Positions 4,064 to 27,186 of a stretch of DNA of 27,186 bases are shown piece after piece. Both the position numbers and the translations under genes were made by a program. Under the pieces are notes generated by a model. The model made no database searches. It was not told the DNA's origin and saw only the letters and a list, made by a program, of their open reading frames with translations. The stretch covers positions 1 to 27,186 of the IMG/VR virus record IMGVR_UViG_3300032288_005686; one strand, given 5' to 3'. Numbering within the stretch: position 1 is the first letter of the stretch; each line of letters starts with the position of its first letter. The stretch comes from a virus.

Positions 4064-4446
4064 GTGTATTAAGATTTCTTTCTGGAAAGCGTTTGTGATG
4101 AAGATAAATATAAATAAAACGCTACGATCGGGGTTTGCGAGGAAATGGGAAAAAGGAACAACGAAGAAAACAAAAGCATTGGGAATAAGGATATGCGATT
4201 TGGCACTGAAATGGTAAGTGCCGTCTCGTCATATAAGCTTTCTCTCCCCTTTTTAAAAAGCTCTGATTCTGTCGGGTGTTGCCCCCTGTCGGGGGCTGTT
4301 CCCTGGCCAGTTTGACTAGCCATTTTTTCAATCTTAAACCGCTGTTATAGGAACAACGGAATAAGACTGCAACTAACACAACCAAGGTCTCTCAAAACCC
4401 ACAATAATAGATATAAAATAAAATAAAATATAAGTCAATAAAAAAA
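4064..4446. other. 383-base structured spacer, no convincing gene
   Basis: This spacer is locally much richer in G and C than its surroundings. On the minus strand it holds, in order: an 8-bp hairpin (arms 4339-4346 and 4352-4359, CCGTTGTT/AACAGCGG); a TGGC/GCCA hairpin near 4302-4322; a very stable GCCCCC-GACA-GGGGGC hairpin near 4275-4290; the GACGAGACG motif; and a 7-bp inverted repeat AGCGTTT/AAACGCT near 4087-4122. Two overlapping minus-strand open frames cross it, but neither has a ribosome-binding site. It looks like a terminator and leader region separating two operons. Confidence 0.6.
4222..4232 (-). promoter_or_regulatory. GACGAGACG motif, putative phage promoter (copy 1)
   Basis: The minus strand reads TATATGACGAGACGGCAC. 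It is one of six exact copies of GACGAGACG, all on the minus strand upstream of leftward genes. This one lies about 160 bases before the 4063 start and some 40 bases past a GC-rich hairpin. Confidence 0.5.
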
Positions 4447-7176: not shown

Positions 7177-7242
7177 TTGATTTTCCTTTCTACGATACAG
7201 ATACCAACGATTAGTGCAGAATTACACTAACCATTGGAAGCT

Positions 7243-7303
7243 ACCAAGACCATTGAGATTACTCTCTAGGTTTCGGCCTTGCTTAAGGGCCTCATCAGTT
7301 GGT
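7243..7303 (-). ncRNA. Type I hammerhead ribozyme candidate (A)
   Basis: Minus-strand RNA. CUGAUGA lies at 7298-7292, stem II GGCC/GGCC at 7291-7288 and 7278-7275, then GAA at 7274-7272. Stem III closes with ACC (7271-7269) against GGU (7251-7249), with an inner GAGA-GUAA-UCUC hairpin. Cleavage is predicted after GUC, between 7248 and 7247. Open stem I pairs UUGGU (7247-7243) with ACCAA (7303-7299). All canonical core bases are present. The 5' strand of stem I overlaps the stop codon of the gene at 7303-7515. Confidence 0.85.
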
Positions 7304-7515
7304 TACCAATTAATATGATGTGTTGAGCCATCTTTGAAAATAACTTCTTCTATGTTATTTTCAATTACAATGCCATCAATGTCAAACGCCTTATTTTTTA
7401 CCAATTCAATTGTTTCTGGGGAAACAAACAATCCTTCGCTTACTACACCAAAACTATTAACAAAACCAATTAGATTTAAATCTTTATAAACTTCAACTTG
7501 TACAAATGCTTTCAT
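7303..7515 (-). CDS. Hypothetical protein, 70 aa
   Basis: Not recognised. A small soluble protein with beta-like alternation (KAFVQVEVYKDLNLIGFVNS, FDIDGIVIENNIEEVIFKDG). AGGAG lies 8 bases before the ATG at 7515. Its mRNA would be bounded by the tRNA-like element (7631-7675) at the 5' side and hammerhead A at the 3' side; the stop codon's last base is part of stem I of that ribozyme. Confidence 0.77.
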   Translation of the reverse strand: MKAFVQVEVYKDLNLIGFVNSFGVVSEGLFVSPETIELVKNKAFDIDGIVIENNIEEVIFKDGSTHHINW

Positions 7516-8325: not shown

Positions 8326-8352
8326 AATCTTTTTCTCCTTCTACATAGGGGG

Positions 8353-8434
8353 TTGGTTTCGATACCCGCAACGGTACCCATATTGCCGGAATTGACAATA
8401 CTTTCTTCAGCTGACTAACGCATCCCAGGACCAA
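8353..8434 (-). ncRNA. Variant type III hammerhead candidate (B) with inserted hairpin
   Basis: Minus strand. Stem III pairs UUGGU (8434-8430) with ACCAA (8357-8353). Cleavage is predicted after GUC at 8429. Stem I pairs CUGG (8428-8425) with UCAG (8414-8411); the core CUGAAGA (8410-8404) fits CUGANGA. Stem II is GGUACC/GGUAUC (8378-8373 with 8366-8361), then GAA (8360-8358). The oddity is a complete extra hairpin (arms 8401-8396 and 8385-8380) inserted between the core A9 and stem II, exactly where candidates D-G carry a single extra U. Confidence 0.5.
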
Positions 8435-8506
8435 GGGATATTAAGCATCCCAAGCTTTGATTTTTATACAGAGTTTTCTCTCTGGATGACATTGTAATAT
8501 TATTAG

Positions 8507-8650
8507 TTAGATTTGCTGTTCACTTAAAACAGCTACGATGAAAAGTTCACCACCAGTATTTTCACTGATGATACCAGCTAATTGGCTTAAAGTTTGAGCC
8601 TTGATAGACTCAACCTGGCCGTTATTTAATAAACAAGTAAATAATCTCAT
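8507..8650 (-). CDS. Small hypothetical protein, 47 aa
   Basis: Translated from the ATG at 8650, which has a strong AGGAAGG site 7 bases upstream. The product begins MRLFTCLLNNGQVESIKAQT and ends FIVAVLSEQQI. It is soluble and not recognised. The gene stands alone: terminator (8767-8787), GACGAGACG motif (8738-8748) and a 90-base leader lie upstream, and hammerhead candidate B lies downstream. Confidence 0.72.
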   Translation of the reverse strand: MRLFTCLLNNGQVESIKAQTLSQLAGIISENTGGELFIVAVLSEQQI

Positions 8651-8737
8651 GAATCACCTTCCTTTCAAAGTGTGAGATCTGTTAAATCCCGAATACCAAG
8701 AAAACCTTGATACCGAGAACCTTATACAATTTTTGGC

Positions 8738-8748
8738 CGTCTCGTCTT
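8738..8748 (-). promoter_or_regulatory. GACGAGACG motif, putative phage promoter (copy 2)
   Basis: The minus strand reads GTTAAGACGAGACGGCC. It starts about 20 bases past the terminator U-tract and 90 bases before the 8650 start, the order expected for a promoter. It is the only copy preceded by AA rather than AT. Confidence 0.55.
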
Positions 8749-8766
8749 AACGCCGTACTTGAGTGT

Positions 8767-8787
8767 AAAAAAACCCCCTTACGGGAG
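8767..8787 (-). terminator. Rho-independent terminator
   Basis: CUCCC-GUAA-GGGGG (8787-8774, one U-G pair) is followed by seven U, 9 bases past the stop of the 8796-9146 gene. It has the textbook shape: stable stem, GNRA tetraloop, U-tract. Confidence 0.88.
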
Positions 8788-8795
8788 CAAAAACC

Positions 8796-9146: not shown

Positions 9147-9253
9147 ATAAATTTCCTTTCGATAAATAAATATATTACAATGTCACCTGCTATCTGGAGG
9201 AGATAATCTTTAGGCGGAGTCTTATAATAAGCGTATACACCTAAATACAGGTA

Positions 9254-9282
9254 TGAATTATAATTTCCACAATTATAATTCA
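9254..9282 (-). other. Perfect 12-bp leader hairpin
   Basis: UGAAUUAUAAUU pairs without mismatch with AAUUAUAAUUCA around a 5-base loop GUGGA. It lies about 23 bases downstream of hammerhead C's cleavage site, so it would sit close to the 5' end of the processed mRNA for the 9146 gene, where it could protect against 5'-end-dependent decay. Confidence 0.55.
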
Positions 9283-9304
9283 ATTAAGTTAATCCAAAAT
9301 GGGT

Positions 9305-9362
9305 GGAAGACCATCGGGTTACCCCTAGGTTTCGTCTGGCCCCCGCCAGACTCATCAGTCCC
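9305..9362 (-). ncRNA. Type I hammerhead ribozyme candidate (C)
   Basis: Minus strand. CUGAUGA (9358-9352), perfect 7-bp stem II GUCUGGC/GCCAGAC with GGGG loop (9351-9334), GAA (9333-9331). Stem III closes ACC/GGU with inner GGG-GUAA-CCC, mirroring candidate A. Cleavage is predicted after GUC, between 9309 and 9308. Stem I pairs UUCC (9308-9305) with GGGA (9362-9359). The element begins immediately after the stop codon (9363-9365). Core bases are all canonical. Confidence 0.87.
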
Positions 9363-9871: not shown

Positions 9872-12800
9872 CTATAGACTGCCTTCTTCAGTAAACTCTA
9901 ACTTCAATGAAGGTCGGGTAAAGTAGAACGCAAAAGGAGAATTAACCAATGATTCATTACCGTATTTCTTGTAATGAATTAGACTCAGACAAGCTCTTAG
10001 TTCTTTAGAACCGGATTTGTTGATTAAGCCTTTCATACAATTATCTACGATAGCTGGATCCATTCCGTTCCACTTCTTAATCCCTAGGCCTATTTCTAAA
10101 TTCGTTAAGAATCTGGAATTCAAACCTAAGAAATTCAAAATATAAATTCCCGCTTCTAGACCTGCAAGATCTATCGCAGTTGTATACATTTGTGCCATAG
10201 AGACACTCTTGTGATACACGATAGATTGTTCAAAAGGAGAATATGCTGTAGAAGCTTTGAATTTCTGATATTCAGTTACTTTTTCTGCTTTCTTGTAGGT
10301 TTGACTATAGCCTGAATCAGGTCTATAATTGTCATTTCTACCAAAAGCGATAGGTTGACCGAATATTTGGGCTGCCAAAAGTTGAACAGAATGTGGATAG
10401 AGATTATTTAAAATTTCATCAAAATTGTCAGAACCTTGCAATGGCGCATTCATAGGTATACCTAATGAATCATGCGCAGCTTTTCTGAATAATTGAACCA
10501 TGTTGAAACCTTTATTCTCTCTTCTCTTTTTCTCAAACATGTTTTCCAAAAGAAAACAATAAGGGACGAATACGGCTCTGTCATATTCCATATCTTCCCC
10601 TCTGTATTTCTTTGTACTTTTTGTTTTGAGTTCAAAAGAGACTGAATGGATCAAGTCTAATGCTCTTAATAAATCACTACCTTTCAGTAGTTCATAAGAG
10701 GCATAATCTTGATTCTTCATATCCACACAAGACAACTTGAACATTCTCTTCTTGCTAGTCACCTCTTTATCTCCATATTCTATAAATACACCGTCATCTG
10801 GCGTACCTACAACCTTATTAATCTGGTTGAGGGAGATGATTTGACCAAAACCGAAATTAAGATCAAGTGCGATGTATTTTTGTATTTCTATTCCTTGTCT
10901 TTGCAGATGCTTGGTCATGAGACTAAAGTACTGCACCCATTCCTCGGACCTTTTAATTCTTCCTTCTACCGCGCTTACAACTTTCTCTAGTTTGATAGAT
11001 AAGTTGGTACCACAAAGTAGTAAGCCACCAATTATCTCCGCCCAAAATTCCCAAGCAAAATTAAAATTAGCTCTTGGATTTAGAGCTTTCTCAGAGATCC
11101 ACTCTCTGCCTCCCCAAACTTTAATTTCCTTAATTACCAATCCCTTGTTTTTCTCTACTTGCTCTTTACCAAAGAACTTCATCCCCATTTCTAAGCGGTC
11201 GATAAAGGTTAGACAAGATTCGACATCAGACCATCTTTCATCTTTTTGAGCTTTTAACTCATGAGAAAGATTTGCATTTTTGTCATCGAGGAGAAGTTGA
11301 ATCATTGATAGCTTGAATTCATTCCTCCAGCCAGCGATTACTTCTTCGCTAAAAGCATTCTTTACATCATTGAATTTCTCAATAATGAAAGGTAAGAAGT
11401 ATTCATTTTGGAAATCTACTCTTTCAGAGTTCTTTGCAGACTCCGAAATAGCTTCTAAACAATCCGCTAAGAATTCTACAAAGAGGTCTTTTTTATCTTC
11501 CTCAATAACTATCTTGTTTTGATAGTATTTCGCCGCAGCAAATTTTACTGCATTCTCGAATTGATTCAGATATAAAGCTCTTCTTTCTTGATTGACTTGA
11601 CTGTTTAGAAGGCCTTTCCAAACCCTATTGGCAAAGGCTTCTTCCCAATTCGCTAATTCACCTTCACCCTCGAACTCTTTGAAGACTGATGCAACATGTG
11701 CAATTTTTTCTCTTGCGCTCTCAACACTTGCTTGTCTAGAGGACTGTGCAGTGTTTTCTTTTGCTCTTGCCTTTAGGGCTTGAGAAATCAAGAAAGCATC
11801 AGAGAATAATCTACAATGAGAATCTGGAGTTAATTCTTTATTATCATCCAAACGGATAAGGAATTCAGAAGATTCATAAGAGTTTAAAATGTTATCTTTG
11901 ACAACTTCTCTTACCTCTCTCAAAGAAGAGATATTAGTAGAGAATTTAGTGTTGAACAAAGAGTTAAACTCCGCATCTATATGAGTTTTAACCAAACTCA
12001 TATGAGTAGGTCTCTTACAATCATCAGAAGCAGATTTCAACCATTTTAAGAGATTCTTTCTGTCCACCAGAAAATAAGAATCCATCTTATCACAAGAAGA
12101 AGACGACCAAGTTGCAATTCCTCTAACCCACTCCTTGCCATCCCTTTCCTCTCCCCCACCTTCCACCATTTTAATATTTCCATTAATCAGTTCCTCATAA
12201 ATCTCCTGCCAATCTCCCTCCGCTTTCCCTGTCCATTGTGCTAATTTGAATGCAAATAGCACAGTTTGAGACCACACCAAGGCCCCTTTTACTGTATACC
12301 CCTGATTCTCATCAGTGATTTTAACCATCATGCCAGATTCCATATCTAGCATTTCCTCTTCCTTATCCATAAAGTTCTCCTGTTCAAACCAAGTAACAAC
12401 TTCTTCTTCAGAGCTAAATTTAATCTTGTCACTTCTGAATTTATCCTCCCCCATTACGATATAGGAGATACCAGGCACAATCATCATCTTATTACCCACA
12501 CTAATAGGCCCCCTAGATAAATGCCAATATTTTAGAGATGGAATCACATAAGCGTACTTTTGCCTATCGATGAACGCTTGTTGCACATCGAAGCAAGTAT
12601 AGAAGTATCTTCTAACCCATTCTAACATCCTTACTCCACCATTAGTTCTTTCTGCCTCAAAGTAGGTGGTTGCCATGGCAGCAACGTTGGTAATACCGCC
12701 AACGTTTAATTGACCGCCATTTTTGACAGTGAGAAACATAGATAAATCCTCAATACTGTCATTGTCGTCTTGTTCCATAAATTCCAGAGCTTTCTTCATT

Positions 12801-14980
12801 TCCTTTTCTTGTTTTACCCCACTAAAAACAGAACTTTTAATTACCAACTTTTTACTCTGCTCTTTGGTTGGTCTTTCATCCCTTACGAAACCAATTAATT
12901 TAGCTATACACACCCATAGCCTATTGGTTGTAAGGATATTTCTATCACCATCATTATCCCCTGTAACGATGGCTTGCAATTCAGTGCTTACCCAAATGAT
13001 ATCATCTATCAATTGGGGAGCAATAACTGCACGATAGAAAGACTTGAAAGAGGCTATTTCGTTATCATTCATGGCCCCAAATATTACATTCCTGATTTCT
13101 TGATACTTATTCTCCAGTTTACCCTCTATTACCGCATCCCATGCATCGCGGTAATCAATGAGATGCACCAATTGGACTGAGCTTGCATCCTGATTTGGAG
13201 TACGAGTGAGACAAGCTTCTAACCATGGCTTGTCTCCAAAGTTTCTTCTCTCTTCGGGACTCCATTTTCCCAATACGACATCTCCCGCACCAAAACTCAT
13301 CATGTTTACGTATTTACTTGCACCTTTTATTTCAAAGGTGTTCACAAGATGCGCATATTTCTCCCCCTCAAGAGAGTTCATGATACCCAATAGATTAGGA
13401 CTCTCATCCAAATGGTTTTGATTTAAAATCTTAGCCAATTTAGATTCAATCCCCTTGCTCAATAAGGAGAAGAATTCATCTTTAAGAGCGTCTATTGTGT
13501 CATCGCCAGTGACATTTAAAGCTAATAACAATTGGCTAATTTGCCAGTTATTACTAGTCTTTAAATTTTGTTTGTCTTTTGCAATGATTGTGAACAACCC
13601 TTCTCTTTTGAGAATACCATCAGCTCCCAAATCTACCTTCTTTCCTTTACCCTTTAAGGTAGAAGGAGTAACCAATGCGCCTTTCCAATATTTGACGCCA
13701 TTTAATTCGATACTATAACCTCTTGAATACCTGAGGTCATTAATAAATTCCTCCAATTCCCTTTTATCTTTTTCCCCTAAATTCAAGTCCTTATAATTAA
13801 CCAAGGACAATACCCCATTTTCTTCCTTAACTAGATATGCCGATCTAGCAAGAAAACCTTTTGCAAATACACCTCTATCGATGTATCTAAACTGGTGTCC
13901 CACCTTATCTAAGACACCAACAGTTGCCAATGCCGCACCATCATTGCCTTCCCAAGGCAAGACCGCATCAGATACCAGGAATACTGGCAAATCATTCATA
14001 TATTCACAGCTCTTTAAAGCAGGAGTAGTGATGAATGACTTGAGATACCCTCTTTGTTCTGTAAAGTTATTGAAAACCTCACCAGACAAAGTTATGATAT
14101 TCTTCCATAATTCAGTAGACACATAAATTCCCTCAGCTACTGGGTGATAGCCAATCCTTGCCATAGCCTTGATGAAACCACGGCGGGTTGAAGAAGATAG
14201 ATCCATTGACACTTTTACGATGTCTTCTGGACTATAACTGATTCCAAATTTTTCCAATAGGGTAAACAAACTGGAATTCCAATCTGTTGTCCCCTTTAGA
14301 ATCACATTGAAATCATTTATTTCCTCTGTATCAAATGCCATCGCCTTTGCACTGGTCACTGATTTTGCTTTGGCTTCGGAAACCACAGCAATTTCAGCGA
14401 CAATTCTCATTCCTTTTTTATTGGATAGAGAATCTTTCAACTCATTTTTTAGTTTATTTACGAAGCTGGATCTCTTCGTTAAACCATTATGAGTCTCAAT
14501 AGTACCATTACCAGCAGAAGAAAGAGATTTTCCAACTTTTGCACCTAAAGAAAGTGCTAAGTTTAAAAACAAAGGAGAAACTCTACCAATCAATAGAGAG
14601 GTAAAGAAACTCAATCCTTTTTCTTTTCGAGCTTCAACAAAAATCTCAAGGTCACGATAGAAAAGAACCAAGCCACGAGACCACGAAGAGGTTTTGGCTC
14701 TATCTTTGCGCGCTACCAATTTGGCTTTGCGTTCAACTTTAGCTTTTGCTTTACGTTGCTTTTCAGCTTCGTAAATCGCTGTGGTTCTGGCTTTAGCTTC
14801 GATCTCTGCTCTTACTCTTGCTTCTTCATCAGCTTTGGCTTTCTTTGCTCCCTCTGCGAGTGCATTGAAAACAGCCAATTTAACCAATGCATTGTTTAAT
14901 GCACAAAAGTGGTCACTTGTACCACATCCGCTAGAAATCACTGATTTTAAATCAGCAATTAAATTTAATAAACTTTCCAT
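9872..14980 (-). CDS. Putative single-chain double-psi-beta-barrel RNA polymerase
   Basis: A 1702-residue protein, the largest in the window. Residues 675-679 read DNDGD inside VTGDNDGDRNI, matching the DxDGD metal-binding signature of two-barrel RNA polymerases (bacterial beta', QDE-1/cellular RdRP, YonO, crAss-phage polymerases). About 80 residues earlier, TRTPNQ (592-597) fits the RxP motif that precedes DxDGD in that superfamily. Residues about 44-96 are a charged Ala/Lys/Glu helix, unusual for such enzymes. I could not place the second-barrel lysines, so assignment rests on one strong and one weak motif. The ATG at 14980 follows GGAG. Two tandem GACGAGACG motifs and a 12-bp leader hairpin lie upstream. 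It could transcribe phage genes; RNA-templated activity cannot be excluded. Confidence 0.6.
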   Translation of the reverse strand: MESLLNLIADLKSVISSGCGTSDHFCALNNALVKLAVFNALAEGAKKAKADEEARVRAEIEAKARTTAIYEAEKQRKAKAKVERKAKLVARKDRAKTSSWSRGLVLFYRDLEIFVEARKEKGLSFFTSLLIGRVSPLFLNLALSLGAKVGKSLSSAGNGTIETHNGLTKRSSFVNKLKNELKDSLSNKKGMRIVAEIAVVSEAKAKSVTSAKAMAFDTEEINDFNVILKGTTDWNSSLFTLLEKFGISYSPEDIVKVSMDLSSSTRRGFIKAMARIGYHPVAEGIYVSTELWKNIITLSGEVFNNFTEQRGYLKSFITTPALKSCEYMNDLPVFLVSDAVLPWEGNDGAALATVGVLDKVGHQFRYIDRGVFAKGFLARSAYLVKEENGVLSLVNYKDLNLGEKDKRELEEFINDLRYSRGYSIELNGVKYWKGALVTPSTLKGKGKKVDLGADGILKREGLFTIIAKDKQNLKTSNNWQISQLLLALNVTGDDTIDALKDEFFSLLSKGIESKLAKILNQNHLDESPNLLGIMNSLEGEKYAHLVNTFEIKGASKYVNMMSFGAGDVVLGKWSPEERRNFGDKPWLEACLTRTPNQDASSVQLVHLIDYRDAWDAVIEGKLENKYQEIRNVIFGAMNDNEIASFKSFYRAVIAPQLIDDIIWVSTELQAIVTGDNDGDRNILTTNRLWVCIAKLIGFVRDERPTKEQSKKLVIKSSVFSGVKQEKEMKKALEFMEQDDNDSIEDLSMFLTVKNGGQLNVGGITNVAAMATTYFEAERTNGGVRMLEWVRRYFYTCFDVQQAFIDRQKYAYVIPSLKYWHLSRGPISVGNKMMIVPGISYIVMGEDKFRSDKIKFSSEEEVVTWFEQENFMDKEEEMLDMESGMMVKITDENQGYTVKGALVWSQTVLFAFKLAQWTGKAEGDWQEIYEELINGNIKMVEGGGEERDGKEWVRGIATWSSSSCDKMDSYFLVDRKNLLKWLKSASDDCKRPTHMSLVKTHIDAEFNSLFNTKFSTNISSLREVREVVKDNILNSYESSEFLIRLDDNKELTPDSHCRLFSDAFLISQALKARAKENTAQSSRQASVESAREKIAHVASVFKEFEGEGELANWEEAFANRVWKGLLNSQVNQERRALYLNQFENAVKFAAAKYYQNKIVIEEDKKDLFVEFLADCLEAISESAKNSERVDFQNEYFLPFIIEKFNDVKNAFSEEVIAGWRNEFKLSMIQLLLDDKNANLSHELKAQKDERWSDVESCLTFIDRLEMGMKFFGKEQVEKNKGLVIKEIKVWGGREWISEKALNPRANFNFAWEFWAEIIGGLLLCGTNLSIKLEKVVSAVEGRIKRSEEWVQYFSLMTKHLQRQGIEIQKYIALDLNFGFGQIISLNQINKVVGTPDDGVFIEYGDKEVTSKKRMFKLSCVDMKNQDYASYELLKGSDLLRALDLIHSVSFELKTKSTKKYRGEDMEYDRAVFVPYCFLLENMFEKKRRENKGFNMVQLFRKAAHDSLGIPMNAPLQGSDNFDEILNNLYPHSVQLLAAQIFGQPIAFGRNDNYRPDSGYSQTYKKAEKVTEYQKFKASTAYSPFEQSIVYHKSVSMAQMYTTAIDLAGLEAGIYILNFLGLNSRFLTNLEIGLGIKKWNGMDPAIVDNCMKGLINKSGSKELRACLSLIHYKKYGNESLVNSPFAFYFTRPSLKLEFTEEGSL

Positions 14981-15081: not shown

Positions 15082-15093
15082 CGTCTCGTCATT
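15082..15093 (-). promoter_or_regulatory. GACGAGACG motif, putative phage promoter (copy 3)
   Basis: The minus strand reads AAAAATGACGAGACGACTT, about 100 bases before the polymerase-like gene. It is the downstream member of a tandem pair spaced exactly 15 bases. Confidence 0.55.
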
Positions 15094-15096
15094 TTT

Positions 15097-15108
15097 CGTC
15101 TCGTCATT
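15097..15108 (-). promoter_or_regulatory. GACGAGACG motif, putative phage promoter (copy 4)
   Basis: The minus strand reads GGTAATGACGAGACGAAAAA. Upstream member of the tandem pair, lying about 25 bases past the UUCG hairpin and T-run at 15133-15163. The TAATGACGAGACGAA form is shared with copies 5 and 6. Confidence 0.55.
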
Positions 15109-15808: not shown

Positions 15809-15870
15809 GATATTGATCCTTTCAATGGGAGTTGGAGGGAAGGGTTGCTATAGCTTGTTGCAACCTTAAT

Positions 15871-15913
15871 GTCTTAAATGAGAATCGAACTCATTTTAAA
15901 TCACCAGAAAGAC
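15871..15913 (-). ncRNA. Truncated tRNA-like element (copy 2)
   Basis: Minus strand: GUCUU (15913-15909) pairs with AAGAC (15875-15871); T-arm AAAUGAG-UUCGAUU-CUCAUUU (15896-15876) has the same T-loop as copy 1. The 12-base linker (15908-15897), UCUGGUGAUUUA, matches copy 1's linker at CNGGUGRUUU. Total helix is 12 bp. No anticodon arm. It sits in a gene leader, 11 bases past the promoter motif. Confidence 0.65.
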
Positions 15914-15923
15914 CGGGGTTTTT

Positions 15924-15935
15924 CGTCTCGTCATT
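15924..15935 (-). promoter_or_regulatory. GACGAGACG motif, putative phage promoter (copy 5)
   Basis: The minus strand reads TGTAATGACGAGACGAAAAA. It lies about 25 bases past the terminator at 15961-15982 and about 115 bases upstream of the 15808 start. Confidence 0.6.
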
Positions 15936-15960
15936 ACAAAAGTTCAAAAAAAACCTATAT

Positions 15961-15982
15961 AAAAAAAGACTTAAAAAGCCTT
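15961..15982 (-). terminator. Rho-independent terminator
   Basis: AAGGCUU-UUU-AAGUCUU (15982-15966, one G-U) followed by five U, between hammerhead D and promoter copy 5. It ends the nucleotidyltransferase-like gene's transcript. Confidence 0.72.
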
Positions 15983-16047
15983 ATGATATACTTATAGATT
16001 ATTGATATTGAACATATATAAAGATAGATAGGACGAAACTGACGATT

Positions 16048-16104
16048 GCTATTTCGACCCTCAATTAGGTCATCATCAGAAGAAGGAGAAACCTTCTTGA
16101 TAGC
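16048..16104 (-). ncRNA. Type III hammerhead ribozyme candidate (D)
   Basis: Minus strand. Stem III GCUAU (16104-16100) with AUAGC (16052-16048). Cleavage is predicted after AUC, between 16099 and 16098. Stem I is a closed 7-bp hairpin AAGAAGG/CCUUCUU with UUUCU loop (16098-16080); core CUGAUGA (16079-16073); one extra U (16072); stem II GACC/GGUC (16071-16056); GAA (16055-16053). The extra U before stem II is shared with E, F and G. It lies 48 bases after the stop of the nucleotidyltransferase-like gene. Confidence 0.8.
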
Positions 16105-16152
16105 TATAAATAAATAGTGGGTATAATTAAATAAGACGATAAATACAGACTT

Positions 16153-16857: not shown

Positions 16858-16880
16858 TTTGCAAGAGCTTGTTTATTTAT

Positions 16881-16900
16881 AGACCTCAAGCGAAAGGTCT
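16881..16900 (-). promoter_or_regulatory. Leader hairpin shared by two genes
   Basis: AGACCU/AGGUCU (6 bp, 8-base loop) is followed by AUAAAUAAACAAGCUC and the ATG at 16857. The same arrangement, with AGACU/AGUCU at 18299-18318 and AUAAAUAAAUAAGCUC, precedes the gene starting at 18275. Both genes lack a Shine-Dalgarno site, so this may be an alternative translation or stability element. Confidence 0.55.
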
Positions 16901-16910
16901 AGCTACAGTT

Positions 16911-16922
16911 CGTCTCGTCATT
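16911..16922 (-). promoter_or_regulatory. GACGAGACG motif, putative phage promoter (copy 6)
   Basis: The minus strand reads TGTAATGACGAGACGAACTG, 13 bases past the U-tract of the terminator at 16935-17003 and 54 bases upstream of the 16857 start. Confidence 0.6.
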
Positions 16923-16934
16923 ACAGGAATGAAT

Positions 16935-17003
16935 AAAAAACAGATTTAAAAAAAGGAATAAATCCCTTTATCTAATTCTATTATTCTTATTTATTAAATC
17001 TGT
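16935..17003 (-). terminator. Rho-independent terminator with long AT stem
   Basis: ACAGAUUUAA (17003-16994) pairs with UUAAAUCUGU (16949-16940), with a nested AAAGG/CCUUU stem, and six U overlap the end of the stem. It follows hammerhead E and precedes promoter copy 6. Confidence 0.7.
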
Positions 17004-17034
17004 AATTAAGAGATTAGAAAAGACACTGATGTTA

Positions 17035-17097
17035 TTCTTATTTCGGCCTTAAATTCAGCCATCATCAGGGAAGAGAGAAATACTCTTCCTATAAGAA
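17035..17097 (-). ncRNA. Type III hammerhead ribozyme candidate (E)
   Basis: Minus strand. 7-bp stem III UUCUUAU (17097-17091) with AUAAGAA (17041-17035). Cleavage is predicted after AUA at 17090. Closed stem I GGAAGAG/CUCUUCC with a 7-base loop (17089-17069); CUGAUGA (17068-17062); extra U (17061); stem II GGC/GCC (17060-17045); GAA (17044-17042). All core bases are canonical apart from the extra U. Confidence 0.82.
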
Positions 17098-17116
17098 AAT
17101 ATATAGATATATATGA

Positions 17117-17141
17117 AAGGATTCTTTTATGTAGAATCCTT
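17117..17141 (-). other. 9-bp hairpin between stop codon and hammerhead E
   Basis: AAGGAUUCU pairs perfectly with AGAAUCCUU (17141-17133 with 17125-17117). No U-tract follows. After ribozyme cleavage it would sit near the 3' end of the mRNA, where it could block 3' exonucleases. Confidence 0.6.
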
Positions 17142-17171
17142 GACTATTTACTTATTTTTTATTCTTTTTCT

Positions 17172-17534: not shown

Positions 17535-17561
17535 TTTATTTATCCTTTATGTTGGCATTAA

Positions 17562-17589
17562 GAAAAATCTCAACAATAATATTATTGAG
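17562..17589 (-). terminator. Terminator-like hairpin between hammerhead F and the 17534 gene
   Basis: CUCAAUAAU-AUU-AUUGUUGAG (17589-17569, 9 bp with one U-G) is followed by AUUUUUC. The shape is that of a terminator, yet the next gene starts 28 bases on with no promoter motif, so it may instead be an attenuator or a 5' protective hairpin of the cleaved mRNA. Confidence 0.55.
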
Positions 17590-17602
17590 CACGATATCTG
17601 AT

Positions 17603-17652
17603 AGGTTTCGGCTTGAGTTCGCCATCATCAGCATGGGACTACCCATGGACCT
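17603..17652 (-). ncRNA. Type III hammerhead ribozyme candidate (F)
   Basis: Minus strand. Stem III AGGU (17652-17649) with ACCU (17606-17603). Cleavage is predicted after GUC at 17648. Stem I CAUGGG/CCCAUG with UAGU loop (17647-17632); CUGAUGA (17631-17625); extra U (17624); stem II GGC/GCC (17623-17610); GAA (17609-17607). It lies 30 bases after the stop of the 17682-18275 gene. Stem III is short (4 bp). Confidence 0.82.
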
Positions 17653-17681
17653 TATTAATAAATAATAATAAAAGCAAAGGA

Positions 17682-18275: not shown

Positions 18276-18329
18276 TTTATTTGAGCTTATTTATTTATAG
18301 ACTCTAAGCTTAAAGTCTAAAGACAGTTT

Positions 18330-18382
18330 CTGGTTTCGGCTTCAATTTGCCATCATCAGTACAGGAGAAACCTGTAGACCAA
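18330..18382 (-). ncRNA. Type III hammerhead ribozyme candidate (G)
   Basis: Minus strand. Stem III UUGGU (18382-18378) with ACCAG (18334-18330, last pair G-U). Cleavage is predicted after GUC at 18377. Stem I UACAGG/CCUGUA with UUUCU loop (18376-18360), the same loop as D; CUGAUGA (18359-18353); extra U (18352); stem II GGC/GCC (18351-18338); GAA (18337-18335). Confidence 0.85.
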
Positions 18383-18428
18383 GTGTTGCTTAAAGGGACA
18401 CCAACCCTACATACACGGTTCAGCTATT

Positions 18429-18455
18429 GTTTAGATATACGTGCGTAATCTAAAC
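18429..18455 (-). other. Strong hairpin upstream of hammerhead G
   Basis: GUUUAGAU-UACG-CA-CGUA-U-AUCUAAAC: about 12 bp with one bulged U and a 2-base loop, flanked by GCU/AGC. No U-tract. It lies between the terminator at 18461-18501 and hammerhead G. A protective hairpin or a hairpin promoter element is possible. Confidence 0.6.
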
Positions 18456-18460
18456 AGCCA

Positions 18461-18501
18461 AAAACAATTACAAAATCGGATTAACCGATTGTAATTGTTT
18501 T
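18461..18501 (-). terminator. Rho-independent terminator overlapping a stop codon
   Basis: A 17-bp stem (18501-18485 with 18479-18461, a two-U bulge) with a 5-base loop containing the TAA stop. The U-run is partly inside the 3' arm (GUUUUU). The last five codons of the 18481-18702 gene form the 5' arm. Confidence 0.7.
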
Positions 18502-19083: not shown

Positions 19084-19815
19084 ATGTCTAAAGAAGAGAG
19101 ACAATTGCAATATTTTCAAAAAGTTAGCACCGATGAAAGATATGAAAAATATCTTTCAAAAATCCCAACACATAAATTAACTCATATTAAGAATAAAGTA
19201 GCTACTCAAGGGGTCTACACTATTTCTCCTATTATCTGTCAAGGTCCAGATAAATGTCCTTTTCTTTCTAGATGTCCTATTCCTGAAGTTGATGATAATG
19301 GCAAATTAAATAAGTTAAGTTTAGATATGTATCCTGTTAATCAAGCTTGTATTGTAGAAAAATATTTTGTTGAGCAGAAGACTATCGAATATATGCAACA
19401 TTTAGATGTAGATCCTTCCAATCCAGTAGAGATGTCTATTGTAGAAGAATTAGCTTTAATTGATTTATATAAGAATAGAGCTTTAACTGTTTTATCTAAT
19501 GGCGATAAGAATGGTTTTGGTAAGGATTTTTTACTTACTGAGATTACTGGGTTTAATGAAAATGGTGATGTTGCTACTCAAACTAAATTACACCCTTTAT
19601 TAGAGCTAATAGATAGATTAGAGAGAAGACGCGAGAGATGGTTGGAGAAGTTAATGGAGACTAGAACCTCTAAAGCTGCATTTATTAGCAAGCTAGGTTC
19701 CGAGCAAACTAATTCTAAAGTTTTAGGAGAGATACAAAAGCTTAGGGAAGCTTTATTAATTCAACAAGATTCTGTTACTATTGTTGGAGATGAGATTTTA
19801 CTGGATGAAAAATGA
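19084..19815 (+). CDS. Cys-motif phage protein at head of packaging operon
   Basis: I chose the ATG at 19084 (MSKEERQLQYFQKVS), which follows TAGGAG at 7 bases, over a GTG at 18994 that would add a 30-residue hydrophobic stretch translated from the promoter region. The 243-residue product has C52-x5-C58-x5-C64-x24-C89 (CQGPDKCPFLSRCP), which suggests a metal or Fe-S site, then a helical charged C-terminal half (LIDRLERRRERWLEKLMETR). Its place at the head of the operon ending in terminase raises the possibility of a small terminase subunit, but that is positional inference only. The stop overlaps the next ATG by 4 bases. Confidence 0.78.
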   Translation: MSKEERQLQYFQKVSTDERYEKYLSKIPTHKLTHIKNKVATQGVYTISPIICQGPDKCPFLSRCPIPEVDDNGKLNKLSLDMYPVNQACIVEKYFVEQKTIEYMQHLDVDPSNPVEMSIVEELALIDLYKNRALTVLSNGDKNGFGKDFLLTEITGFNENGDVATQTKLHPLLELIDRLERRRERWLEKLMETRTSKAAFISKLGSEQTNSKVLGEIQKLREALLIQQDSVTIVGDEILLDEK

Positions 19816-22800
19816 AAAAGAAACCTAGTTACAGTTTTGCTTCGTATAGCCAAGATAACAAGATTATTTCTAACGTATATGATAATCCTCAAGAAACTAA
19901 TTATAAATTTGGTAGTTCTCAAGAGATATTAAAAAATGCAGTAATTCTTGATATCGAAACCTTAGGTTTAAGAACTGAATCTATACATGAAGCTGCAATG
20001 TATCATTTAGGTACTAATCAACTAGATATATTCATTCCAGAAGTAAATCTAATTAGGAAAATAGAAGAAGAGAGTAATGCTGCTACCAAGGCATCTAGTG
20101 CTAGTACTATGGACGTGGATGTTTTAAAACATTTGCGTTCTAGGGAGCCTGGTAAATTTGAACCTTTAATTAAACAAATGACTTACAGGGATATTGCTTT
20201 TGCAGATTATTTAATGAATAAAAATAGATACGATGAGATATTAAAAAATATAGAAGAATTAAAAAGAAATAATAAATTTAATGGCAATACTATTCTTGAG
20301 AATAAAGTTAATGCATTAGAAGATAGGTTAAAAAGATTATCTGTTATTGATAAAATTAGTAGTATTTCACTTAAAGAAAAAGAAATTGAAAAAGCTGGAA
20401 TAATGCTTGGGGATTTATCTGCATATTCAGATGTAGAATTGTTAAAGACTGTTGGTTTTCATGATGCTTTTGCTAGGGATGAGGAATTCTTAGCTAAATA
20501 TATTTTAGAAGGCTCTAAAGGTTTTGAAGAATTTGCTAAAAAGAGTCCTCAAGAAGCTGCATACCTTAAGTATATGTATGATAATTCAGTTAAGTATGAT
20601 GCTGATTTCTTTAATAAGATGAAAGAAGCTTATGCTGAAAAGTTAAAATCATCAGGACAATACGTACAATCTATTTTTGAGAATACTAAAATAAATGTTA
20701 GAACTGGTGTATCTCAAAATGATTTGCTACGTAATATTGCCTTTTCAAGAGAAAATAAAGCTTTATTTGTAGCAAATTTATCATATGAATCTAAAAAGTT
20801 CGGTACTCAGTTAAGAGCTAGTTTAGAAGATTCTTTTAAAGTAGAGGAAGCAAAATATTTATCTGAGGTTCCTGATGCTAAACCAAAAGATGTAGCTACA
20901 GAGGTTAGACGTAGGACTTATTCTCAAAGTATTTTCTCTGTACTTGGACAACCAGTATCTGCTTCTACTGGTGAACCTTTTTATGCAACTGGCATGGAAT
21001 ATAATAAAACTTTAACTGAAGCTAAATTGTTCAAAGATTTTACTAATGTTGCTGGTTCTATTATTGCGACTGCAGACACTACATCTAACTTAGATATTCA
21101 AGATATTATTCGTTCTCAACAAAGTATTTTAATTAATTTAGGTTTATTAGATGCAAAAAAGCCTTTAGGGCTTTCTATGGAAGCGCAATCTAGACTTTAC
21201 ATGTTTACTAGTATGCTAGACGCTCCAGAAGAAGCTTTAACTGAAATACTAGCAGATTTTAAAGAAACCCACACTGCAGGTTTAGATACTTTAATACATG
21301 AAAATGTAGCTTTAAAAGAATCTATGGAGCAAGCTGAAGCTTTGACTGAATATTTAAAAGGTACTGATAAAGCTCAAGAATATATGAGAATGGGTAAGGA
21401 AAGAAAAGGCCCGCTATATAAAGCAGTTGTGTATTCCGAATTAATGAAACAATTAACTCCAGAAATAGAATCTATTAACATGGAGAAACGTTTGGCATCA
21501 GATTTAAAACAATTAACAGAGTTTGGTTATATTACTCAAGCTAAAACAATTGCTAAACCCATATATAGAGAGCAAGTAAGATATTTACCACAAAGTGATA
21601 TAGTAGAAACTACTAAAATACAAACCCCAGGGTATGATAGAGATTATTTTGTAAGTTACAGGGATTTTAGAAAAAATATATTAGAGAATGCATTTCCAGG
21701 AAAAGAAACTCAATATAAAACTTTTGAGCAAGATTTACTTGGTAGAGGATTTATTTTTCAAACATCTGCAGGAGAATATGAATTTAATCAAAGTTTACTA
21801 AATATAGAGGATCAAACTCCTGAAGCTACAGAATTAAGAAAAAATATTGCGGCATATTCTGCAGAAAGAGAAAAGACTACAGCGGATACGGTTAGGTCTT
21901 TCAGGAATTTAGCTAAAAATTTAAATAAACAAGAATTATTACAAAGAGCAGATAGGTTTTTTTATAATCAAGAGTTGGTGCCACCTAATATCATCTCTAA
22001 TGCAAAGATGAGTAAATCAGAACAAACTGCAACTGAAAATATTAGAAAACAATTAAAGATGGCGCAACAACACAAAGCCACTGCAGACAGATTAATTAAA
22101 TCAAAACAACCCGTTACATTACAAACTTTAGAAGATATAAAAAACTTAAATCTACCAGAACCTAAATTATTAGAATTAGAAGCAGCTAAACAAACATATT
22201 CTAGAGGAGAAAAAATCGGTACTCCAGAAATAGCTAGAGTTAGTTCTCAAATTCCTTATGATGAAATGGAATTTAATAAAGCATTTTTTGAAGTAGAATA
22301 TAATAAGAGTAATCAAACTAATTTAACTACTGAGCAAATTATTAGTAGAGAGCAAACTAATTACGGCGTAATTCAAAAACAAATAGTTAAGCAAGCAGCA
22401 GAAAGAAGTGAAGAATTTGGCAAAAAGGAACTTGGTTTTGAAAAACAAATCAATGAAATTCCTTTATATGGCGAAAAGACAATAGAAGATTATAAGATAG
22501 ATTTTGAAGAATATAAAAAAACAGGTAAGGTATTGACTAGTTACGGCGTTGAGCAGATAGACCCTATGTTTAATAAGAACATGAGTCTAGACGAGAAGAT
22601 AGAAAGGTATTCTCAGTTTAATTTTGAGTTAGAAGAATCTTATTTACATTCTAGAACTCCTGAAGGCAATGTTCAAATACTTACAGAACCAGAATTAAAA
22701 CAGAAATTATTTATAGATAGTACTGTTGATTTCTCAGCAAAGCCTGCAGTTACACCTGGTCATGAAAGTTTAGCTGCGTTTGATTTAAGAAATAATATAA

Positions 22801-24469: not shown

Positions 24470-25642
24470 ATGGAAGACAATAAAAAATTCAGTACTGCAG
24501 ATTACGTCAGTAATACTTTAGGTGTAATGGGACTTGGAGCAACTGTAGCTGCTAACTACAAAGCTTTGCAAAGTGCATTTTTTTCAACAACTATGGCTAG
24601 TATGCCATTAGTTGGAAACGCTACAAATAGTGTTTCTTTAATGCCTTTAATTTATAATGAAAGAACTGCTGGTGTTCCATTAAGAGATCTTAGAATCTTG
24701 CCTAATTTATCTGGTAGCGAGGGTAGAGTGGTAAATTTAGCTGATAATATGAAATCTGCTGAAAATACAAATAAGTATATTATGAATAGCACTCAAAATA
24801 TAGGAGCAAGAGGACATACTATTTTAAATGTAGGTAAAATAGGTTTAGGTTTAGGTGCTGCTATGGGGCTTTATTCTGCTTATAGTTATTATCAAGAAGA
24901 AGGTGCTTCTGGTTTATTTAAAGGTATGGCTACTTATGCTATTGGTACTCATTTTGGTTTGGAAAATTCTTATCAAGTAAAAGAATTAGGTGCATATAGT
25001 AAAGGACAACAAACTTTGTTATTAAGACAAGCTGGATTTGATTCCAGTCAAATAGATAATGCTATAAAAACTCAAAATATGGCTAAGCATAAAGTTTCTA
25101 ATCCTAATTCTTTTTTTAGAATAGGTTCTTTAGGCCAAGTAAAAGCTATACCATTTGTCGATCGTATGCTAGGTGTGATGGCGCCTATGATTGGTGCTAG
25201 TATTGGTGCTAGTGTTGGTTATAGCCTAGGTTCTGGTATGGCAGAAGGTATCTCTGCTATGATGGGCGCTGAAAACTCAACTATGATGGGTGCTGCTGGT
25301 GGTATTTTTGGTGCGATTGGTGGTGCAGCACTTGGTGGTGCTGCACTCTCTAGTATAGGTTCTGCTGCAGTTACTGCAGGTTTATTTGGTGCAGCTACAA
25401 TTATAGGTTCTGTCTCTTCTCAAATGTTTTCTGAGACTATGCGTAGAGCAAGTCAAACTAGACCTAGACTAGATTTCGCAAATGATGTACAACCTTATTT
25501 CAGTAGAAACGCAGTTACTATGCGACAAAGAGCATTACAAGCAATGAACAACTCTCATATTAATGCTAGGTCTGCTTTAGGTAATGAAGCGGCAATACTA
25601 CATTCAAATAGAGATTATTTTTCAAATCTAGGAAGACTATGA
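24470..25642 (+). CDS. Glycine/alanine-rich membrane-active virion protein (putative)
   Basis: A 390-residue protein not assigned to a named family. It has a Gly-rich hydrophobic segment near 124-142 (GKIGLGLGAAMGLYSAYSYY) and a long Gly/Ala/Met-rich region near 233-320 (GASIGASVGYSLGSGM, GGIFGAIGGAALGGAALSS) with GxxxG spacing typical of helix-packing membrane or pore segments. The termini are polar and Asn/Arg-rich. Between the large SNase protein and terminase, this layout fits an internal virion protein that enters or crosses the host membrane during DNA delivery. This role is inferred from composition and context. Its stop overlaps the terminase start (ATGA). Confidence 0.75.
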   Translation: MEDNKKFSTADYVSNTLGVMGLGATVAANYKALQSAFFSTTMASMPLVGNATNSVSLMPLIYNERTAGVPLRDLRILPNLSGSEGRVVNLADNMKSAENTNKYIMNSTQNIGARGHTILNVGKIGLGLGAAMGLYSAYSYYQEEGASGLFKGMATYAIGTHFGLENSYQVKELGAYSKGQQTLLLRQAGFDSSQIDNAIKTQNMAKHKVSNPNSFFRIGSLGQVKAIPFVDRMLGVMAPMIGASIGASVGYSLGSGMAEGISAMMGAENSTMMGAAGGIFGAIGGAALGGAALSSIGSAAVTAGLFGAATIIGSVSSQMFSETMRRASQTRPRLDFANDVQPYFSRNAVTMRQRALQAMNNSHINARSALGNEAAILHSNRDYFSNLGRL

Positions 25643-27186
25643 AAAAACCAGATACCTCATTTTTATATGAAATAAATGAATACGGAATACAACATCATAA
25701 AGTAAATGTAGAGATTCCAGATGATGTAATTGAATATTACAAAGAGAATTATAATATCAAGACAGATGTGCACAAAACATGTATTAGCTGTCAAATAAGA
25801 CAATTAGATAAATACCCAGACCAAAAAGATTTTATTATTCCTTGCAAAGGAATTCCTAGAGGATTACCACCAGGAAGTGCAAGTAAATTAGATGAAATGG
25901 TAGCAGTTACTAAGATACCAAAAGAACAAGCTAGAAAGATTCTATTAGCTACTATTGACCCTGCTGCTTGGGCTGAATTAATGTTTGGTTTTAATGACGA
26001 TGACCCTAAATGGAAATTGAGAGCCTATCAAAAAGAACAATTAAGATGTAGCTCTAAACGTATTGCAATTAGAGAAGGACGTCGTTCTGGTAAAACATTC
26101 ATGAGTGCGCTTAAATTATTATATTATGCATTCAATTTAAAAGTTAACAAAGGTAGAGATTTGCAAGGAAACGAAGTCATGCTAGGTCCTAGTATAATGA
26201 TTGTTACTCCTTATCAAGCTCAATTAACTACTATCTTTGAAGAGATGGAAAAACTAATTAAAAGAAATTATGAATTGCGCTCGGAAGTGACAAGCGGTAC
26301 TGGAGATAACCTTTATGTAAAGACTCCTACATTTAAAATGGAATTTAAAAATCAAGCCACAATACAAGGCTTTGTTTCTGGTATCGGTATGCGTCAAGAT
26401 GGTTCTGGTGGTGGTACTATGCGTGGTCAATCTGCAGATATAGTTTATCTAGACGAAATGGATATGATTCCAAAAGATGTTTTGGATAAAGTTATTAATC
26501 CTATTTTAGCTACAACGCCAGATACTATGTTAATTGCAACCTCTACTCCCATTGGTAAGAAATCTAAATTTTATGAATGGTGTTTAGAGCGTCCAGATTT
26601 TAAAGAAGATTTTCACCCTTCAAGTGTAATTCCTCACTGGGAACAAATTAAAGAAGAAATATTAAGAGATTCTACTAAAGAATCTTTTATGGCAGAATAC
26701 ATGGCTGTATTTATTGATTCAGAAGATGGTGTATTCAAAGCAGATTGGATTCAAAAAGCTAGAGTAGATTATTCTTATTTAGATACTACTAGCTCTGGAT
26801 TCTTAGCAAATAAACTAGGTATCGCTGGAGCAAATAATAAATCAGTTGCTATAGGTATCGACTGGAATAAAAACGCAGGTACAGAATTTTTTGTAGTAGG
26901 TTATTTTCCAATGTCTCAAATGTGGGTAGCTTTAGATGCAGTTAATATTCCACACGAAGAGTATTCTGCTAGAAAATGGATTAGCGAATTAATTAAATTA
27001 AATTATAAATGGAAACCTAATTATATATATGCAGATGAAGGTTACGGACATACTATTATTGAAGACTTAAGATATGAAGCTTACAAATTAAGACAAAAAC
27101 CAAATAAGAGTGCGATAGATTTAGAAACCGTTTTAATTACAGATAGACTAACTGCATTTAATTTTTCTAAAATGGTAGAATTAAAA
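25639..27186 (+). CDS. terL: Terminase large subunit, 3' end outside window
   Basis: The motor that cuts and pumps phage DNA into the procapsid. I translated from the ATG at 25639; 516 codons are open to the window edge. Walker A is GRRSGKT (147-153), Walker B IVYLDEMD (268-275, D272/E273), and an ATSTPIG coupling motif (about 297-303) follows. The nuclease domain opens with GIDWNKNAGTE (first catalytic Asp, D408), with a second acidic site in YADEGYGHT (D466). The N-terminus carries CISCQ and PCKG, a possible extra metal site ahead of the ATPase domain. Translational coupling to the preceding gene by a 4-base overlap. Confidence 0.97.
   Translation, partial: MKKPDTSFLYEINEYGIQHHKVNVEIPDDVIEYYKENYNIKTDVHKTCISCQIRQLDKYPDQKDFIIPCKGIPRGLPPGSASKLDEMVAVTKIPKEQARKILLATIDPAAWAELMFGFNDDDPKWKLRAYQKEQLRCSSKRIAIREGRRSGKTFMSALKLLYYAFNLKVNKGRDLQGNEVMLGPSIMIVTPYQAQLTTIFEEMEKLIKRNYELRSEVTSGTGDNLYVKTPTFKMEFKNQATIQGFVSGIGMRQDGSGGGTMRGQSADIVYLDEMDMIPKDVLDKVINPILATTPDTMLIATSTPIGKKSKFYEWCLERPDFKEDFHPSSVIPHWEQIKEEILRDSTKESFMAEYMAVFIDSEDGVFKADWIQKARVDYSYLDTTSSGFLANKLGIAGANNKSVAIGIDWNKNAGTEFFVVGYFPMSQMWVALDAVNIPHEEYSARKWISELIKLNYKWKPNYIYADEGYGHTIIEDLRYEAYKLRQKPNKSAIDLETVLITDRLTAFNFSKMVELK

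Follow-up and report, generated by a model that had tools for sequence, protein, structure and literature searches.

A putative single-chain two-barrel RNA polymerase of an uncultured tailed phage, from a probable unrecognised branch of the YonO/QDE-1-like clade

The DNA analysed here (the window) is a fragment 27.2 kb in length from an IMG/VR record of an uncultured phage. On its minus strand lies a gene for a large protein in which a preliminary description had seen a putative single-chain RNA polymerase. The features of this gene, together with the terminase gene through which its relatives were found, are as follows:

9872..14980, minus: putative single-chain two-barrel RNA polymerase gene, 1702 aa from the ATG, homologues found
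14693..14842, minus: charged helix rich in Ala/Lys/Arg/Glu in the N-terminal extension, residues 47-96
13856..13948, minus: GNDG...QFR...FAKG, residues 345-375, barrel-B motif that includes K374; aligned counterpart in YonO TDGCG...R..WVKG
13649..13663, minus: STLKG, residues 440-444, carrying K443, the other barrel-B lysine; aligned counterpart in YonO SQFKM
13196..13204, minus: RTP motif, residues 593-595, P595 invariant and R593 present in nearly all members
12944..12958, minus: DNDGD, residues 675-679, metal-binding aspartate triad (barrel A, by homology)
12686..12715, minus: GQLNVGGITN, residues 756-765, G761 invariant, IGEYSN in YonO
12557..12580, minus: QAFIDRQK, residues 801-808, Q801, D805 and K808 invariant, matching QVAVDRQK of P23-45 gp64
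25639..27186, plus: terminase large subunit, running off the window and divergent from the polymerase, the route to the family

The motifs of both barrels all lie within one ORF. DNDGD stands exactly at the residues given in the preliminary description, and the RTP that had been placed about 80 residues before it begins 82 residues earlier. The charged N-terminal helix pointed out there is likewise present, with 76% Ala/Lys/Arg/Glu across the 50 residues starting at residue 47, and similar charged N-terminal segments occur in other long members of the family described below, most clearly in G007 and G018. The window encodes neither beta nor beta', in agreement with the reported absence of a separate beta subunit; the protein matches neither the beta' active-site domain (PF00623) nor the T7-like single-subunit RNA polymerases (PF00940), and PF00623 was not found in nine longer related contigs of unstated completeness, the control genomes being positive in 14 of 14 cases. 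In a like search of the related contigs for PF00940 none of the controls was positive. That the remainder of the protein resembles nothing recognised also holds for searches with the window protein alone, which returned nothing in Pfam (best E = 0.28), PHROGs or the PDB sequences and, by tblastn against 50,697 phage records, a single chance match (E = 9), while scans of viral contigs with this protein and of cellular genomes were empty. The Pfam RdRP family (PF05183) matches neither the window protein nor four of its relatives.

The aspartate motif by itself is a poor guide, as D.DGD arises in 304 of 20,000 shuffles of the window protein, and its use as a sole criterion for a polymerase was dropped because unrelated structural proteins also carry it. 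The ordered set DG..KG..RxP..DxDGD..G..[IV]DxxK arises in 3 of 20,000 shuffles, and among 571 ORFs of at least 300 aa from the fetched loci it is matched only by the family, by known two-barrel polymerases (the YonO group, gp64 and gp96) and by one further member. A trap for searches that rely on the motif is GDFDGD/GDTDGD in an unrelated protein of about 605 aa (L007:16873-18684 and L052:17884-19698).

Related viral contigs were fetched via the terminase, whose gene is sufficiently conserved for this, and the whole contigs were then searched with the polymerase and later with growing alignments. This gave polymerase homologues of about 970-2175 aa on 20 phage contigs besides the window, one of which (G032) was recognised by its motifs. 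They comprise long forms of 1702-2175 aa (G001, G004, G007-G010, G013, G018 and G020) and forms of intermediate or short length, 973-1445 aa (G022, G032, G033, G035, G038, G040, G041 and G043-G046), the short ones (about 970-1140 aa) being without the extensions of the long ones. Identity to the window protein in the core ranges from 41% down to 13%. Both genes could be placed on 19 contigs, counting the window, and on every one they diverge, with the polymerase starting 6.4-12.3 kb upstream of the terminase. This count leaves out G008 (a duplicate of G009) and G041 (where the contig ends within the terminase). Since the sample was chosen by terminase, it shows co-inheritance inside that phage group and is silent on other groups. 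In the cultured phages MTATph1, KLEB27-3 and ME3, whose terminases are distantly related, no homologue was found by profile or by motif near the expected place; KLEB27-3 gp277 and ME3_309, considered as candidates, scored at background.

Some of the neighbouring genes deserve mention in their own right. Adjoining the terminase, a protein of 1551 aa (19812-24467, plus) carries a C-terminal staphylococcal-nuclease domain (PF00565, 4e-15) and an N-terminal DIETLGL that resembles a DEDD exonuclease motif, so that it may possibly be a virion or ejected nuclease. At the other end of the window lies a phage adenylosuccinate synthetase (3-770, minus; PF00709, 5e-68); in G001 (L012:12585-14925) a full-length adenylosuccinate synthetase is followed by a 387-aa ORF, which by eye looks like adenylosuccinate lyase, and then by nucleotide-metabolism genes.

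Conservation was read from an alignment of 18 rows, in which window numbering equals core numbering plus 199. Invariant in all rows are G348, Q363, K374, G375, K443, P595, D675, D677, G678 and D679, and further downstream E707, G761, Q801, D805, K808 and G824. When the YonO group is added, G348, P595, D675/D677/D679, G761, D805 and K808 remain invariant and D347, K374, G375, G444, Q480 and G678 nearly so. In the YonO group, the invariant lysines K270 and K315 align with K374 and K443 of the window protein. The RxP motif is altered to GQP and KNP in two long members. The barrel-B motif also has a counterpart in QDE-1 (NDGVG...R...KG). In the two-barrel superfamily a metal-binding triad resides in one barrel and two basic residues in the other (PMC7824862, PMC10770324), and the residues conserved in the family are the set expected of a two-barrel polymerase. 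The segment from Q801 to K808 would correspond to the bridge-helix/trigger-loop region, which is reported to be conserved among such enzymes (PMC10770324). Furthermore, helix-hairpin-helix-like segments (for example VAGIGPKTAEKIVEARN), absent from the window protein, are found in or before barrel B in G007, G009, G010 and G032 (genes L111:3978-10502, minus; L112:2594-9115, plus; L113:3135-9659, plus; and L059:272-3613, minus), which points to nucleic-acid handling.

The link to a polymerase of established activity comes from profile comparison. With hhalign, the profile of 19 family sequences matches the YonO family with a probability of 97.0% (score 98.8, 360 columns), in an alignment that runs from barrel B to Q..ID..K and keeps the order DG..KG, SxxK, RxP, DNDGD, IGxxSN, Q..ID..K. 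Leave-one-out profiles of the family give 96.0-97.2%, whereas the controls stay low, at 0.1% for the reversed family and at most 0.0% for 20 column-shuffled ones. The best of 150 decoy proteins against an 11-member profile reached 1.7%. In a set of 120 decoys compared with the full family profile one entry scored 99.5% and the next 0.9%, the former being taken for a leftover fragment (L011:17536-18999) from the N-terminal part of the G001 polymerase; the same fragment is taken to account for the one decoy that scored 32.9% with the short-form profile, the next giving 2.8%. The window protein alone gives 0.3% against YonO and its three-member clade 2.6%, while against the short forms they reach 80% and 95%, respectively; the link between the window protein and YonO is thus transitive, passing through the shorter members. 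A core alignment of just eight members gives 0.9% against YonO, so the sensitivity of the comparison depends on including divergent members. Since a HMMER search with the YonO-group profile found no match in the 20 contigs, the family is named a separate branch and not a member of the YonO family.

Against gp64 of Thermus phage P23-45 the family profile reaches 61.8%, weaker than the link to YonO, and among 177,635 PDB sequences the top two hits of the family-only profile are gp64 (8f72) and its close homologue 8f5m, with E-values of 0.029 and 0.062 that are not significant alone and alignments at Q..(V/I)DRQK. A joint profile of the family and YonO finds QDE-1 (2j7n) as its best PDB match with E = 0.002, compared with 0.011 for YonO alone. 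Kinship with crAss-phage gp66 is tempting by eye (RIPNQ, GGKSGVGITAN) and receives no support from the profiles, the hhalign probabilities being at background (the full family gives 0.2%, and no sub-clade exceeds 7%). As a side observation, PHROGs labels gp64 (L136:5291-7141, minus) as 'head protein' (phrog_25317) and YonO (L128:31357-33876, minus) as 'unknown function' (phrog_8308), a misannotation that hides the enzyme class.

The intergenic regions around the polymerase gene contain a repeated element, GACGAGACG, of which the window has six copies against 0.01 expected, all on the polymerase strand; five are intergenic, and the sixth falls among short, doubtful ORFs:

15082..15090, minus: GACGAGACG, proximal copy upstream of the polymerase gene
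15097..15105, minus: GACGAGACG, distal copy, 15 bp from the proximal one
15924..15932, minus: GACGAGACG upstream of a 110-aa ORF
16911..16919, minus: GACGAGACG upstream of a 234-aa ORF
8738..8746, minus: GACGAGACG within the intergenic stretch 8326-8795
4222..4230, minus: GACGAGACG within the stretch 4064-4446, which has only short, doubtful overlapping ORFs

The tandem before the polymerase gene, with a spacing of exactly 15 bp, recurs in the two nearest relatives, G001 and G004, whose polymerases are just 37% and 23% identical overall to that of the window; its distance upstream from the polymerase start is 110-125 bp in the window, 56-71 bp in G001 and 49-64 bp in G004. In eight long-form phages the scanned stretches together contain 29 copies, overlapping ones included, and every copy lies on the polymerase strand. 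Copies inside genes are one in an opposite-strand gene of G004 (L014:9569) and two in an 84-aa ORF of G018. Scanned stretches from G013, from three cultured phages and from the phages with short or intermediate forms have none. The natural reading is a candidate promoter read by the polymerase or a candidate operator controlling it, though the phages are related to one another. If GACGAGACG were the polymerase's own promoter, the first transcripts would need the host polymerase or a packaged enzyme.

Gaps between the leftward genes also hold hammerhead-ribozyme-like cores (CTGATGA..CGAAA with closed stems and a GTC cleavage triplet), on the polymerase strand only, for example ACCAA-CTGATGAGGCCC..GGCCGAAACC..GGTC-TTGGT. 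The regions concerned in the window, all minus, are 7224-7313, 9147-9362, 15809-16152, 16858-17171, 17535-17681 and 18276-18480; of the six cores, three pass a three-stem test against 0.005 expected, and of these the ones at 7298 and 9358 are convincing. Three further cores were found in G001 (L012 at 4627, 5628 and 6667) and two in G004 (L015 at 8128 and 8641), and Rfam HH9 matches such cores weakly (20.4 bits, below gathering). A more elaborate picture, in which a deep polymerase branch reads its own promoter TGACGAGACG, often as a 15-bp tandem, and its transcripts are cut by intergenic hammerhead ribozymes, may be entertained as a tentative proposal that we would not yet expect to hold in full.

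Several other explanations have to be weighed against a non-virion, DNA-dependent polymerase. A protein of the same kind might be packaged in the virion and injected to transcribe early genes, like crAss gp66 or P23-45 gp96, and the long forms of up to 2175 aa, with extra N- and C-terminal regions, do approach gp66 in size (2180 aa). Against this, the gene sits in a divergent non-structural operon outside the structural cluster on 19 of 19 contigs, the extensions are missing from the short forms, and hhalign to both gp66 and gp96 stays at background, so that we regard packaging as a rather unlikely alternative, though one to be taken seriously. A two-barrel polymerase with another substrate, for example one that is RNA-dependent or makes primers for replication or repair, comparable to QDE-1 or PolD, seems less probable still: one YonO-group protein does match Pfam RdRP and QDE-1 is the nearest solved structure for the joint profile, but the nearest profile relatives, YonO and gp64, are DNA-dependent RNA polymerases (PMC5467207, PMC10770324), every detected member keeps its genome position in dsDNA phage, and the elements repeated between the genes suggest an enzyme with promoter specificity.

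The two remaining explanations deny polymerase activity altogether. Core identity as low as 13-41% and the change of RxP in two members would suit a degenerate two-barrel protein repurposed for, e.g., a structural or regulatory role, but the three aspartates and two lysines are invariant in the 18 aligned members despite this extreme divergence, which argues for selection on catalysis and makes such a degenerate protein very improbable. That DNDGD is a chance occurrence, or an unrelated Asp-rich loop of a structural protein, can hardly be maintained: although GDxDGD does turn up in unrelated phage proteins (those of about 605 aa in L007 and L052), these are without the ordered motif set, which so few shuffles reproduce, and the profile homology to YonO with its controls contradicts the idea directly.

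The reading we prefer, with a probability of roughly 0.9, is that a large tailed phage here encodes, in a single chain, a two-barrel DNA-dependent RNA polymerase from a hitherto unrecognised branch of the YonO/QDE-1-like clade. The profile homology to YonO over both barrel regions and the complete conserved catalytic set support the two-barrel, single-chain interpretation of the preliminary description, and the YonO and QDE-1 profile matches sustain its suggestion of a new branch. On every testable feature the protein appears to belong to the two-barrel superfamily and would work like YonO and gp64. YonO is a processive DNA-dependent RNA polymerase whose triad mutant is inactive (PMC5467207), and the same activity is therefore the likeliest for the window protein; gp64 is an experimentally shown DNA-dependent polymerase as well (PMC10770324). 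By homology, barrel A (about residues 650-700) would hold two Mg2+ ions via D675, D677 and D679, barrel B (about 340-450) would offer K374 and K443 to the incoming NTP, and R593 and the Q801-K808 segment would complete the active site. Because the gene lies in a leftward module diverging from the head and packaging genes, the enzyme is most likely a non-virion polymerase that would transcribe the leftward genes, its own included, from promoters containing GACGAGACG. Conservation of the motifs, the homology to YonO, the synteny and the repeated element are observations; the fold, the catalysis, the promoter role and the timing are inferences.

Among the relatives of cellular RNA polymerase, those with two barrels in a single chain are the simplest, and few have been studied. 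A family of about 970-2175 aa that standard annotation has missed, and that has been passed on together with the terminase through a widespread group of uncultured phages, would broaden what is known of the clade's diversity and reveal the indispensable parts of the active site; with the candidate promoter, the specificity of a one-chain enzyme with two barrels could be tested directly. No description of this branch was found in the literature outside subscription journals, where the 0305phi8-36 protein is known by description only, and the window protein appears to be the first recognised member of a family that escapes ordinary database searches.

Two-barrel polymerases have been grouped into 23 families (PMC10770324). 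The protein is not filed in the YonO, RdRP or crAss families, since their sequence profiles do not recover it. YonO-like enzymes have been named in the jumbo phages 0305phi8-36 and c-st (PMC7824862), known here by description only; they are single subunits with both barrels, and the terminase group of these phages is distantly related to that of the window (0305phi8-36 via ME3). The gp66 of crAss-like phages (2180 aa) is also a very large single chain but is a virion protein with DFDID instead of DxDGD. QDE-1 and the eukaryotic RdRPs (PF05183) share the NDG...R...KG, RxP and DxDGD motifs with the family, yet are eukaryotic enzymes of RNA interference whose Pfam profile does not match the window protein. 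The non-virion polymerase gp64 of P23-45 has only 616 aa and comes from an unrelated phage, although its Q..VDRQK and DxDGD regions align with the family. YonO of Bacillus phage SPbeta, with 839 aa against the twofold longer 1702 aa of the window protein, differs in phage group and gene neighbourhood and shows no similarity detectable pairwise or by HMMER; like the window protein, however, YonO and phrog_8308 carry both barrels in one chain, with the same order of motifs including DNDGD.
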